A DNA stretch of 28,545 nt from Candidatus Delongbacteria bacterium (lineage in GTDB: Bacteria; UBA4055), in assembly GCA_016937995.1 (NCBI GenBank), contig JAFGVM010000009.1, forward strand, positions 1 to 28,545. The letters run 5' to 3'. Position numbers and translations under genes: made by a program. The notes beneath the pieces are model-generated. The model was not told where the DNA came from, did no database searches, and worked only from the letters and a program-made list of their open reading frames with translations. Numbering within the stretch: the first letter of the stretch is position 1; each line of letters opens with the position of its first letter. Below are positions 251-19,463 of the stretch, one piece after another.

Positions 251-1570
251 CTATTCCACAAAGTTTTTGTACAACGGTGCCAAATATAGTGGAAGTGAGA
301 TAAGGTCATAATCAGTAGTTATCTTTGAGGGCTGATCGGTATTAAATCTTAAAGCGGTTCTCAGCTTTTTTTCTTTCATATATATCTGAAGGGATCTAAG
401 AGTCCCGCTTTTACCGGCTTTGACTTCGATAGGAATTATCTTATTGGCAAATTCTGTCACAAAATCGAGTTCGGCATTTGAATTTTTCGCTTCTCTTGTC
501 CAATAGTATAGCTGTGTATCAAGGAAAAAAGGCTCAGTGGTCAGTAGTTGCTGACCGACAAACTGCTCGGCAAGACTACCTTCACTTATAGTAATAAGGT
601 CATTGATGTCAACAAGTCGTAATTTTAGAATATGATTCGCAAGACCGATATCGAGAAAAAGAGGTTTTATTATTTTATCATTTTTTCCCTGTTCAAGAGG
701 GACTCCACCGGATGATGTATTAGTGACAAGGTGAGCTATTCTACTCATCTGTAGTAGTTTTAGTGCAGTTTTTATCGCATCTGATCTTTTGTCCGGATCG
801 ATATTTACATATTTTATCTTTCTGGCAAGAGATGATGGGATGTATCTCAATATTGTAACAAGTATTTCCTGCTGAGTCTTAGTTCCGTACTTTGAAAAAT
901 CAAACTCAAGCGATCTCAATATACTTTCATGTATTCTTTCAACGGATATAATATCTTTTGTTTCAGAGTACTCACTGACTGCTTCAGGCATACCTCCGAT
1001 AAAATAATAAAGTCTGACCAACTTTAAGAGTTTTTCATGGATAGGAACACTTATCTTCATCCCAAGCTTATAATTATTCAGATAATCTACTAAACTTTCT
1101 TCATCCATTGCTGTCAGAAATTCAAAGAAATTTAAAGGGTACATATAGGCGAATTCCACTCTTCCTACGGGCATTGAATATTTAATGTCGTTTAGAACAT
1201 GGTCAAGAAGGGATCCAGCAGCGATCACATGAAGTCCGGGCATGTTTTCATAAAAATATCTTAATCCTACGATTGCTTCAGGGTACTGCTGTATTTCATC
1301 AATAAATAAGAGTGTTTCACCATTAACTATCTTTTTTCCAAAATATGCTGAGATATTCATTATAATATCTTCTGTGTCATTGGTCTTAAAAAAAGATTTA
1401 AATTCGGGTTTTTCTTCAAAATTAATTTTTATTACATCAGAGAAATGTTTTTTCCCGAATTCATCAATAGTATATGTTTTACCGATCTGTCTTGCACCTC
1501 TTACTATCAGAGGCTTTCTGCTCTTTCTATTTTTCCAATCTACAAGATATGACTCAAAATACCTTTTCAT
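251..1570 (-). CDS. ATP-binding protein, AAA_14 ATPase with C-terminal DUF4143
   Basis: A 439-residue AAA-type ATPase of the large AAA_14/DUF4143 family, whose members are abundant in bacteria and archaea and mostly have no known substrate. The Walker A motif GARQIGKT is at residues 25-32. The Walker B segment LLFIDEIQQYP follows near residue 90. The C-terminal part is DUF4143 and holds the ELDFV and IPIEVKAGKSG motifs, which look like the D and E-x-K of a PD-(D/E)XK nuclease-like fold. The length is normal for the family. The start is supported by an AGGAG ribosome site about 8 bases upstream. It is a single-gene unit, divergent from the sigma-54 unit to its right. Whether it cleaves nucleic acid cannot be judged here. 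Confidence 0.9.
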   Translation of the reverse strand: MKRYFESYLVDWKNRKSRKPLIVRGARQIGKTYTIDEFGKKHFSDVIKINFEEKPEFKSFFKTNDTEDIIMNISAYFGKKIVNGETLLFIDEIQQYPEAIVGLRYFYENMPGLHVIAAGSLLDHVLNDIKYSMPVGRVEFAYMYPLNFFEFLTAMDEESLVDYLNNYKLGMKISVPIHEKLLKLVRLYYFIGGMPEAVSEYSETKDIISVERIHESILRSLEFDFSKYGTKTQQEILVTILRYIPSSLARKIKYVNIDPDKRSDAIKTALKLLQMSRIAHLVTNTSSGGVPLEQGKNDKIIKPLFLDIGLANHILKLRLVDINDLITISEGSLAEQFVGQQLLTTEPFFLDTQLYYWTREAKNSNAELDFVTEFANKIIPIEVKAGKSGTLRSLQIYMKEKKLRTALRFNTDQPSKITTDYDLISLPLYLAPLYKNFVE

Positions 1571-1830
1571 AAGTTTCTCCTGCTATTATAGCTAAAAGGT
1601 ACAAACACAATTGGATAATAGCAAGTATTATGATAAAATACCATTGGATTTCTCCCGATTCATTGGGAAGAATGACAAATTGAAATCTTTCTCCTTCATG
1701 ATCGGCAAATTAAAGATAACTGAACACTAACCGCAATTACAATACTTTTAATAGTTAAAGATCAAACCATAATAGTATTTTAAACATTCCGGAAAATACA
1801 TGACAGCCTTAAAATTTCAATAAATAATTA
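1571..1830. other. Non-coding stretch between the ATPase gene and the sigma-54 promoter
   Basis: I see no gene in this stretch. Around 1650-1675 there is a short imperfect palindrome (tcccgattcattggga) of the dispersed-repeat type. An inverted 6-mer pair, AATACT at 1741-1746 and AGTATT at 1774-1779, is centred about 97 bases upstream of the predicted sigma-54 transcription start. That is where an enhancer-binding protein would be expected to bind, but the pair is short and may be chance. Confidence 0.4.
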
Positions 1831-1847
1831 TTGGCATGTTTATTGCT
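1831..1847 (+). promoter_or_regulatory. Sigma-54 (-24/-12) promoter
   Basis: The sequence TTGGCATGTTTATTGCT matches the sigma-54 consensus (TTGGCACG, four bases, TTGCT) at every conserved position except T for C at position 7, a common variant. The essential GG (1833-1834) and GC (1845-1846) are separated by exactly 10 bases. Transcription would begin near 1858. It would run through the hairpin at 1878-1923, the small ORF at 1969-2151 and possibly into the polysaccharide genes from 2366. Activation would need a bacterial enhancer-binding protein, which is not encoded in this window. It lies in a gene-free region, which adds weight. Confidence 0.75.
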
Positions 1848-1877
1848 TTAAGAAAATCCGTAACAAACTACAATAAG

Positions 1878-1923
1878 AAGGAGTCTGTTATATCTCTCCT
1901 CCAAAGACATTCACAGACTCCCT
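1878..1923 (+). promoter_or_regulatory. Leader hairpin downstream of the sigma-54 promoter
   Basis: GGAGTCTGT (1880-1888) pairs perfectly with ACAGACTCC (1913-1921) around a 24-base loop. The left arm carries an AAGGAG Shine-Dalgarno-like sequence with no usable start codon behind it. A second, weaker stem, TCCTCTT (1925-1931) with AAAAGGA (1936-1942), follows directly. The loop and the right flank are rich in C and U (ctctcctcc, cctctcctct) and could pair with purine-rich ribosome sites. There is no T-run after the stem, so it is not an intrinsic terminator. A role in the leader RNA is inference. Confidence 0.5.
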
Positions 1924-1968
1924 CTCCTCTTAAATAAAAGGAATCAGGATATAAATAAGGAATAAGAC

Positions 1969-2151
1969 ATGAAAGAGATTTTAAAAGATGAGAACAATGG
2001 GTACTGCCTCCAGCCAAGATCGGTTTCCTCCGACTGTAATCTGGTCAAACCGACTTATGAAATGATAGTAAAGAAAAAATACAAAAAAGTACCAAGAATC
2101 ATTCCTACATTAGAAGAAAGCATAAAAATGGAATTGATCTTAAATAGCTAA
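1969..2151 (+). CDS. Small hypothetical protein, 60 residues
   Basis: I do not recognise this protein. It is hydrophilic, with no signal peptide or membrane segment. It has two cysteines (residues 13 and 23), a basic stretch near the middle (KKKYKKVPR) and an acidic N-terminus. An AAGGAA ribosome site lies about 7 bases before the ATG. It is the first ORF after the sigma-54 promoter at 1831-1847 and its leader hairpin. That position favours a real gene, or a leader peptide, over a chance ORF. The distance of 214 bases to the next gene leaves open whether the two share a transcript. The coding status is uncertain. Confidence 0.4.
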   Translation: MKEILKDENNGYCLQPRSVSSDCNLVKPTYEMIVKKKYKKVPRIIPTLEESIKMELILNS

Positions 2152-2272: not shown

Positions 2273-2365
2273 GAATAAATCAAAAAAAAATAAAATGCAT
2301 ATCCCGATAAAAGTTGTTATATTATCGAAGTTATTTTACTATAAATAAATATTACCAGGGATATC

Positions 2366-3397
2366 ATGAAGAAAATAAAGTTCGCTTTAGTCGGTTGTGG
2401 AAGAATTTCAAAGAATCATTTTAAAGCAATAGAAGAAATTAATGAAGCTGAAATAGTTGCGTGTTGTGATAAAATAGAGGAAAGAGCAGTATCTTCTGCA
2501 AAAGAATATAATATTGAAAGGCATTATACGAATTATAATGATATGCTGGAAGAAGGCGGATTCGATGCTGTGATGATCTGTACTCCAAGCGGATTGCATC
2601 CTGAAATGGGAATACAGGCCGCGAACAAAGGAATTCATGTTGTTACCGAAAAACCAATGGCTATCAGTCTGGAAACTGCTGATGAATTAGTTCAGGCATG
2701 CGATAAGAACAATGTCCATCTTTTCGTAGTAAAACAGAACAGACTGAACACAACAATGCAACTTCTAAAAAAAGCCATAGATAAAGGAAGATTCGGCAGA
2801 ATATTTTTAGTTCAGTCAAATGTAATGTGGCAGAGACCTCAATCATACTATGATCTTGCAAAATGGAGAGGTACATGGGAATTTGACGGCGGGGCTTTCA
2901 TGAACCAGGCAAGTCACTATGTTGATTCTCTGTACTGGATGATAGGAGAAGTGGAATCGGTTATGGCTGAAACAGCTACTCTGGAAAGAAAGATCGAAGC
3001 TGAAGACACCGGAAGTGCAATTTTAAAATTCCGTAACGGAGCTATTGGAACAATAAATGTAACAATGCTGACATACCCGAAGAACTTTGAGGGTTCTATT
3101 ACTATCCTGGGAGAAAAAGGAACAGTGAAAGTAGGTGGTATTGCAATAAATAAGATCGAAAAGTGGGAATTTGCAGTATATGATGATGATGACAGACTTA
3201 TAGAGGAATCAAATTACGAACCAAAGAATGTTTACGGATTCGGGCATTTACCTTATTATATTAATGTAGTCGATACATTACTGGGAAAGACCGAACCTGA
3301 AACAGATGGAAGATGCGGAAGAAAATCATTAGAGATAATTAAAGCGATATACGAAAGCGCAAGATTGGGTAAGAAGATATCGTTGCCGTTAAAGTAG
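2366..3397 (+). CDS. Gfo/Idh/MocA dehydrogenase, WbpB/WlbA-like
   Basis: A 343-residue NAD-dependent sugar-nucleotide dehydrogenase. The N-terminal Rossmann fold shows the dinucleotide loop VGCGRIS, and the family motif EKP is at residues 95-97. The segments KWRGTWEFDGG and NQASHYVD are typical of WbpB/WlbA, which oxidise C3 of UDP-N-acetylglucosaminuronic acid on the way to 2,3-diacetamido uronic acids. The start follows an AGGGAT ribosome site. The next gene is an aminotransferase, but of the C4 (PglE/EpsN) type and not WbpE, so the usual WbpB-WbpE pair is not complete. A paralogue, about half identical by eye, is at 18396-19463. The family is clear; the exact substrate is inferred. Confidence 0.85.
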   Translation: MKKIKFALVGCGRISKNHFKAIEEINEAEIVACCDKIEERAVSSAKEYNIERHYTNYNDMLEEGGFDAVMICTPSGLHPEMGIQAANKGIHVVTEKPMAISLETADELVQACDKNNVHLFVVKQNRLNTTMQLLKKAIDKGRFGRIFLVQSNVMWQRPQSYYDLAKWRGTWEFDGGAFMNQASHYVDSLYWMIGEVESVMAETATLERKIEAEDTGSAILKFRNGAIGTINVTMLTYPKNFEGSITILGEKGTVKVGGIAINKIEKWEFAVYDDDDRLIEESNYEPKNVYGFGHLPYYINVVDTLLGKTEPETDGRCGRKSLEIIKAIYESARLGKKISLPLK

Positions 3398-18174: not shown

Positions 18175-18395
18175 AATATTTTCCGTTTGAGCAATACAGT
18201 AGAATACGATATTCTTTAATATCACAGTACAAAATAAAACTAAAAGTTGGATATTACAACACAAAAAGTATTAAATTATAACTTAATGTTAATTCTCACT
18301 ATCCGTATATGTATACTGAAATCAAACTTAATTTGATCCTTTATTTTTCTAGATATTTTATATATATTTTTACAAATGATGTATTGAGGGACATA

Positions 18396-19463
18396 ATGAA
18401 TAATTACAAATTTGCATTGGTCGGATGCGGCAGGATATCTGGTAAGCATATAGATGCAATTAACGAAATAGAAAATGCGTCTTTGGCTGCTGTTTGTGAT
18501 ATTGATATTTCAAAAGCTAAATTAGTTGCTGATAAAACAGGAAATATAAATTACTACCGAACTTATGATGAAATGCTTCAAAATGAAGATATTGATATCG
18601 TAAATATCTTAACACCTAGCGGAATGCATGCTGAGCACACTATTGATATAGTAAAGAAGTACAAGAAGCATATAGTAGTGGAAAAACCGATGGCCCTCAA
18701 ACTCGAGGATGCCGACGAGATGATAAAGGTCTGTGATGCGAATTCAGTTCGTTTATTCGTTGTTAAACAAAACAGATATAATTTACCCGTTCAGAAACTT
18801 CGTGAAGCTGTTGAATCAGGTAGTTTCGGTAAATTAGTGATGGGTAGTGTCAGAGTACGATGGTGCAGACCACAGGAGTATTATGACAGAGATCACTGGA
18901 GAGGTACATGGGAACTGGATGGAGGAGTCATAACCAATCAGGCTTCACATCATATAGATCTGCTTGAGTGGATGCTAGGAGAGCCGGTTTCTGTCATGGC
19001 AAAAACAAATACATATCTTGCTGATATTGAGGTTGATGATACTGCGGCGGCAATTATAAGTTTTGAGAATGGTTCAATGGGGATAGTTGAAGCTACAACG
19101 GCCACAAGACCGAAGGATCTTGAGGGTTCTTTAAGTATATTGGGAGAGAATGGTTCTGTTGTTATAGGTGGTTTTGCTGTAAATAAAATGGAAACGTGGA
19201 ATTTTAAGGGATTATCAGAAACAGAGAGTAACTCTATCATCGAAAAATATGGTGAGATGCCGCCTAATGTATATGGATTCGGGCATCAGAGATATTTAGA
19301 ACATGTAATTGATTGTATTGAAAATAATAAGCAAGCACTGGTTGATGGTTTTGAAGGTAGAAAATCTCTTGAACTTATAAATGCAATGTATGAATCCGCT
19401 GAAACAGGTAAAGAAGTATTTCTGAGATTTCATCCTCATAAGTCCAAATTAGGAAAAAGATGA
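18396..19463 (+). CDS. Gfo/Idh/MocA dehydrogenase, second WbpB/WlbA-like paralogue
   Basis: About 355 residues, with the dinucleotide loop VGCGRIS and EKP at 96-98. HWRGTWELDGG, NQASHHIDLLEW and VYGFGHQRYLEH parallel the protein encoded at 2366-3397, with roughly half the residues identical by eye. The likely reaction is oxidation at C3 of a UDP-HexNAc uronic acid. I start it at the ATG of 18396, which has a GAGGG ribosome site 7 bases upstream. The open frame before that encodes an unrelated hydrophobic stretch. It stands alone, 39 bases before yggS, away from the main polysaccharide locus and with no aminotransferase beside it. It may be a duplicate with a separate substrate. Confidence 0.85.
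   Translation: MNNYKFALVGCGRISGKHIDAINEIENASLAAVCDIDISKAKLVADKTGNINYYRTYDEMLQNEDIDIVNILTPSGMHAEHTIDIVKKYKKHIVVEKPMALKLEDADEMIKVCDANSVRLFVVKQNRYNLPVQKLREAVESGSFGKLVMGSVRVRWCRPQEYYDRDHWRGTWELDGGVITNQASHHIDLLEWMLGEPVSVMAKTNTYLADIEVDDTAAAIISFENGSMGIVEATTATRPKDLEGSLSILGENGSVVIGGFAVNKMETWNFKGLSETESNSIIEKYGEMPPNVYGFGHQRYLEHVIDCIENNKQALVDGFEGRKSLELINAMYESAETGKEVFLRFHPHKSKLGKR

Follow-up and report, generated by a model that had tools for sequence, protein, structure and literature searches.

A sigma-54 promoter and a conserved structured leader in front of a polysaccharide locus of Candidatus Delongbacteria

Introduction

Sigma-54 control of the bacterial exterior, including exopolysaccharide (EPS), LPS and flagella, is established, as set out in the portion of Francke et al. 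2011 (PMC3162934) on which we draw. In the PrsR/PrsK PEP-CTERM regulon an activator motif and a -24/-12 element lie 5' of genes for exopolysaccharide-associated secreted proteins (Haft et al. 2006, PMC1569441). Chaperone genes under predicted sigma-54 control have been reported to be enriched in Planctomycetota and Bacteroidota (PMC12316311). In other systems, such as the LoaP dfn hairpin (PMC12691694), RfaH/ops and UpxY, long biosynthetic operons carry an RNA or DNA element in their leaders, while the alpha-r14 and NfeR1 sRNAs hold ultraconserved C/U-rich motifs in unpaired regions and have stems that vary in sequence (PMC10746234).

Here we analyse a stretch of 28,545 nt (the window), which is contig C18 of a Candidatus Delongbacteria genome of 2.75 Mb that is 97% complete (G000). 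We know of no cultured model for the Delongbacteria phylum. As in the theme described by Francke et al. (PMC3162934), a sigma-54 promoter heads an envelope polysaccharide cluster; unlike that theme, as far as the portion used here presents it, the locus belongs to an uncultured phylum and has a strongly conserved structured leader. The promoter type is known, and the leader is, as far as searched, the undescribed element. With the PrsR/PrsK regulon (PMC1569441) the locus shares an upstream activator motif combined with a -24/-12 element, and an activator built of a receiver and an AAA+ domain. However, the activator in question (encoded on contig C95) is extended at its N terminus by about 170 aa and scores 224.8 bits against the PrsR model TIGR02915, below its cut-off of 502.6. 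A leader element ahead of a long biosynthetic operon is likewise found with LoaP, RfaH and UpxY, but here the loop has 24 nt, there is no UNCG-type hairpin as in dfn, and a NusG paralogue was not found. Compared with alpha-r14 and NfeR1, a CCUCC-type motif is again unpaired and the stem sequence again varies (between two sequences); the motif here is CUCUCCUCC and theirs CCUCCUCCC, there is one hairpin instead of three, no terminator was found, and the element stands in front of a coding operon.

Results

The promoter and its upstream elements

1771-1780, forward strand: AATAGTATTT, putative enhancer-binding-protein site of the AATAGTA class, 52-61 bp 5' of the -24 element
1805-1815, forward strand: element AGCCTTAAAAT, identical in the sister species GLR157 and resembling a TTAGCYWTGAA box
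1832-1847, forward strand: sigma-54 promoter TGGCATGTTTATTGCT, with the -24 GG at 1833-1834 and the -12 GC at 1845-1846

A reading of this DNA made from its letters alone (the sequence-only reading) had placed a -24/-12 promoter in front of the cluster, and the match stands: TGGCATGTTTATTGCT is an exact sigma-54 consensus, with the GG and GC at their fixed spacing in a TGGCAY-N5-TTGCW context, and is the sole exact match within the window. Pattern searches with the looser TGGCAYNNNNNTTGCW (TGGCAY-N5-TTGCW) returned nine matches genome-wide and none with a reversed control, making a chance origin of any one of them unlikely. Seven of the other sites precede groES-groEL, clpB, htpG, hsp20, two response-regulator genes and a gene for a secreted protein, and the eighth lies 5' of a secreted-type protein gene near a contig end; since nine out of nine face plausible genes or leaders, the one in the window very probably works as a promoter. 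The earlier claim had been tied to an rpoN gene in the genome and to -24/-12 bases that are kept in relatives. Both are found, as the genome has one rpoN gene (PF04552 at G000:C11:6842-7315, E 4e-56) and the -24/-12 elements are kept in GLR157, where they hold the same position with respect to the leader and stand 5' of the same gene. Placed from the -12 GC, the transcript would start near 1858.

The box at 1805-1815 has counterparts in many sigma-54 promoters of the family, some 16-18 or 28-30 bases 5' of the TGG, the two positions being about one helical turn apart (loci L075, L026, L027, L030, L032, L083, L089, L092, L098 and L107), and over 32 family promoters its score sum is 281 against a shuffled maximum of 265. 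The intergenic DNA before the promoter also holds a short dispersed repeat (1627-1681) with five further copies in the genome, 80-96% identical over 26-55 bases, and further upstream an AAA_14/DUF4143 ATPase gene (251-1570, reverse strand) points away from the promoter.

The leader and its conservation in a sister species

1858-1968, forward strand: predicted 5' leader of about 111 nt, running from the inferred start up to the ATG
1874-1941, forward strand: conserved structured leader core of 68 nt, 55 of 68 identical in GLR157
1880-1888, forward strand: 5' arm of the stem, GGAGTCTGT, pairing with ACAGACTCC over 9 bp
1892-1912, forward strand: invariant loop ATCTCTCCTCCAAAGACATTC, 21 of 21 identical in the two species
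1913-1921, forward strand: 3' arm of the stem, ACAGACTCC, pairing with GGAGTCTGT
1922-1934, forward strand: invariant tail CTCTCCTCTTAAA, 13 of 13 identical in the two species, containing the second CTCTCCTC copy

The 9-bp stem of the sequence-only reading is confirmed, with nine pairs between 1880-1888 and 1913-1921. The fold of the conserved 68-nt core is better than that of its shuffles in both species (z -3.20 in the window, -3.24 in the relative), and the whole 111-nt leader is not clearly better than its shuffles (z -0.97). The AAGGAG reported in the stem arm is present at 1878-1883 but missing from GLR157, and on that ground it was rejected as a ribosome site or a partner of the loop. 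The two copies of CTCTCCTC in the leader are 28 nt apart, with the same spacing in GLR157, and the window as a whole holds three copies against 0.71 expected. The invariance of loop and tail, AATAGTATTT and the block at 2280-2326 described below had all been absent from the earlier reading.

The sister species, GLR157 (G001, contig WTAK01000053), is a Candidatus Delongbacteria isolate that belongs to the same genus. Its sigma-54 promoter TGGCACGGTTATTGCA lies 2.7 kb 5' of a WbpB orthologue that is 86% identical to the window's, and is followed by the same leader; from the first promoter base to the start codon there are 137 nt in the window and 136 nt in GLR157. Over a 44-base leader core 40 of 44 positions are identical, whereas fourfold-degenerate sites of the two clusters are just 40-52% identical and the flanks can be aligned with gaps only (in the 160 bp upstream, for example, 144 bases align and 90 of them agree); the cluster proteins are 77-86% identical. 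At the fourfold-site rate the binomial P for 40 of 44 is about 2e-11, a guide rather than an exact test because the core was picked after inspection. As the leader is kept where synonymous sites are near randomised, something specific probably reads it.

The stem has nine main pairs. GLR157 shares six of them letter for letter, shows substitutions in both partners at two more (A-U to G-C and U-A to C-G, alignment-column pairs 9-46 and 15-40), and lacks the outermost (columns 7-48). Slid pairings of the stem give zero double changes, and in a shuffle test of the two sequences 140 of 500 shuffles match the observed covariation, which is thus not significant; it rests on two pairs in one comparison because the leader occurs in two genomes only. 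A leader peptide (LLxLSSKDIxR) was considered and rejected: its frame is open in both species, but the start codon is not common to both, and in the alignment the paired stem changes account better for the substitutions.

A pattern search allowing two mismatches found the leader in G000 and GLR157 only, once in each, among 61 genomes, and a covariance model run over 41 genomes returned the same two. A gapped pattern gave 19 matches over genome_contigs (84,980 species genomes), with the stem and promoter together only in GLR157, and viral contigs gave none. At the WbpB loci of G003, G005 and G008, which also belong to the family, neither promoter nor leader is present. With two genomes only across these searches, the leader is narrow, at genus level as far as the collections show. 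In Rfam it has no match at the gathering score, and sub-threshold matches were judged to be chance, as was an occurrence of CTCTCCTCC 5' of htpG in this genome (L029), which is not kept in the sister species. As far as searched, the leader is therefore a candidate new RNA motif, hitherto undescribed. Of the earlier proposal that the leader RNA is an undescribed regulator, the conservation and the place outside all Rfam families hold, and a regulatory role is one that the leader may have.

The 60-codon open reading frame

1969-2151, forward strand: orphan 60-codon ORF of doubtful coding status, with an ATG and an AAGGAA upstream at a fitting distance

The frame reported here exists, but no homologue was found by tblastn in 61 genomes (60 of them others), in genome_contigs or in phages, and there is no match in Pfam or NCBIfam; the best match (G003, E 0.03) was dropped as it has stops. 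Its coding score is borderline: only 1.8% of real gene chunks score as low, and 3.6% of random open frames score as high. In GLR157 the leader is followed by another gene instead; its 152-aa product looks like the N-terminal membrane region of the cluster's CapD-like dehydratases, and comparing it with the 60-codon ORF gives no meaningful score. The promoter-leader-ORF order that the earlier reading had proposed to seek in related genomes is thus kept for promoter and leader but not for the ORF, and the searches gave no homologue with codon-level conservation.

The earlier suggestion of a small regulator encoded by this ORF accordingly finds no support. It is very unlikely, in our estimate, that the ORF is a real small regulatory protein whose translation the leader serves. 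The ATG with its suitably spaced AAGGAA speaks for such a protein, as does the chance of about 0.8% of finding a 60-codon open frame from a given start; against it are the lack of any relative in the collections just named, a base use by codon position that departs from that of the window's genes, and the membrane-domain gene that takes its place in GLR157. Perhaps it is a gene that arose recently, or one in decay. Judged by comparison of the two loci, the promoter and leader are the conserved parts and the ORF is not, nor is the ORF the cause of the conservation.

The GLR157 locus has two successive CapD-like dehydratase copies behind the leader (L075, 870-3269), the first consisting of the membrane region only and the second broken by a frame change, and the gene order of its polysaccharide cluster is unlike that of the window.

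Two classes of sigma-54 promoter

We compared 22 upstream regions of sigma-54 promoters from three genomes of the genus (G000, GLR157 and G002). Of the 13 non-heat-shock promoters 11 carry AATAGTA (12 copies, compared with 1.29 in shuffles, and 0 of 300 shuffles reach that number), and none of nine heat-shock promoters does, whereas TGTCA/TGACA occurs in all nine heat-shock promoters (24 copies, 3.2 expected), a contrast between classes that is partly post hoc since the exact words counted were picked after all promoters had been seen. Both motifs had been written down from the nine promoters of G000 before those of GLR157 and G002 were fetched. The AATAGTA class consists of surface or signalling genes, and the window promoter and its GLR157 homologue belong to it.

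Exactly two strong PF00158 (sigma-54 activator) proteins are encoded in G000, on contigs C66 and C95, so that enhancer-binding proteins and an enriched common upstream site are both present, the binding itself being putative. The C95 activator (614 aa, G000:C95:29442-31283) has a receiver domain, an AAA+ domain and a canonical GAFTGA, and its gene is flanked on either side by a sigma-54 promoter of the ATAGTA class, which makes it the likely activator of that class. Among 12 other genomes its sole full-length relative is in G006 (45%), about 1 kb from a sigma-54 promoter. G005 and G008 (95-97% complete) have one activator each, of the C66 size class, and their sigma-54 promoters are heat-shock only. 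No enhancer-binding protein was found in the incomplete assembly of GLR157, and in G002 (79% complete) AATAGTA promoters are present and a C95-type protein was not found. On the simplest reading of these sequences, heat shock would be under the C66 type and the AATAGTA class, including the polysaccharide cluster, under the C95 type. The outline is a testable circuit in which a single sigma factor would work with two activators, each with its own DNA motif, and with a conserved leader RNA outside the family libraries.

The C66 activator (L157:1447-2601) has GSFTSA for GAFTGA in the sigma-54 contact loop, lacks a receiver and starts nearly at the AAA+ domain, and has a long stretch ahead of its Fis-type helix-turn-helix. 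The heat-shock promoters of G000 are at C37:32048 (L025), C6:270 (L026), C39:15286 (L029) and C90:7106 (L030); similar ones precede groESL, clpB, htpG and hsp20 in GLR157, G002, G004-G006 and G008, dnaK also lies behind a sigma-54 promoter in G006, and within the genus TGTCA/TGACA repeats are always upstream. Judging from these promoters, the heat-shock response of Delongbacteria appears to be under sigma-54, and the receiver-less C66 activator is a candidate regulator of it.

Discussion

We regard an activator-opened sigma-54 promoter combined with a conserved leader that acts in cis on the polysaccharide unit as the best explanation of the locus, and give it somewhat better than even credence. 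In such a mechanism the C95 enhancer-binding protein, the presumed activator, would bind AATAGTATTT and open the promoter, transcription would begin near 1858, and the first ~80 bases would fold into the conserved hairpin with its invariant pyrimidine-rich loop, followed by the invariant pyrimidine-rich tail. A factor or RNA would then recognise both CUCUCCUC copies, and the leader would exert control after initiation on the surface-polysaccharide unit downstream. Such a reader of the leader, if found, would show whether polysaccharide operons outside RfaH, UpxY and LoaP have leader-based control of their own.

The best rival is that the leader acts, or also acts, in trans, with CUCUCCUC mimicking an anti-Shine-Dalgarno sequence and silencing target mRNAs in the manner of alpha-r14. 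The invariant UCUCCUCC is in the unpaired loop with a second copy in the single-stranded tail, the letters of the stem vary while its pairing is kept, and alpha-r14 and NfeR1 are built alike (PMC10746234); moreover the ribosome sites of local genes are AGGAG/GGAGG. Yet there is one hairpin, no terminator-like site was found 3' of it, and the leader extends to a start codon at nearly equal distance in both species, for which reason we favour a cis 5' leader and consider the trans-acting RNA unlikely, if still the strongest competitor. A combined version, in which the sigma-54-fired leader regulates mRNAs in trans via CUCUCCUC while opening the polysaccharide cluster, strikes us as improbable; if true, surface remodelling and translation would be switched together.

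That a long polysaccharide cluster is headed by a leader with a hairpin, and that loop and tail are C-rich and G-poor, would also suit processive antitermination or attenuation through a hairpin-loaded factor, or a C-rich Rho loading site. We think this distinctly unlikely. The terminator search was empty, the leader as read contains no ops sequence, and no RfaH-, UpxY- or LoaP-like paralogue was found: G000 and each relative with a match have one NusG-family protein, presumably the housekeeping one, and a specialised paralogue was sought in G000 (97% complete) with one PF02357 match as the only result, which disfavours antitermination by a NusG paralogue. The least likely reading is a DNA operator, an inverted repeat for a repressor or second activator just 3' of the start. 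An inverted repeat would likewise keep symmetric changes, and a location of about +20 to +65 fits a repressor; however, one operator would not usually have a spacer of 24 bases or an invariant loop and tail so long and asymmetric, and the RNA fold is strong in both species.

How far the cis-acting leader would reach depends on the arrangement of the genes behind it:

2280-2326, forward strand: conserved block 5' of wbpB, aligning with a block upstream of the GLR157 orthologue
2366-3397, forward strand: WbpB-like Gfo/Idh/MocA oxidoreductase (Pfam GFO_IDH_MocA), the first recognisable gene of the cluster
to about 16142: polysaccharide cluster, beginning with the WbpB-like gene

The members of the cluster include a LegC-family-like aminotransferase, a PseB/CapD-like dehydratase, an EPS sugar transferase and an acetyltransferase. 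The sequence-only reading had seen in the promoter a possible master switch for all of them. The stretch from the ORF to wbpB showed no terminator-like site, so read-through is possible; but the block at 2280-2326 is kept though the DNA preceding it differs between the species, which suggests a separate, probable wbpB promoter, and the first gene behind the leader is another one in the relative. One master switch for the whole cluster is thus unproven. The window also encodes a second WbpB-like Gfo/Idh/MocA oxidoreductase at 18309-19463, about 15 kb from the copy at 2366-3397, and the two are 49% identical.
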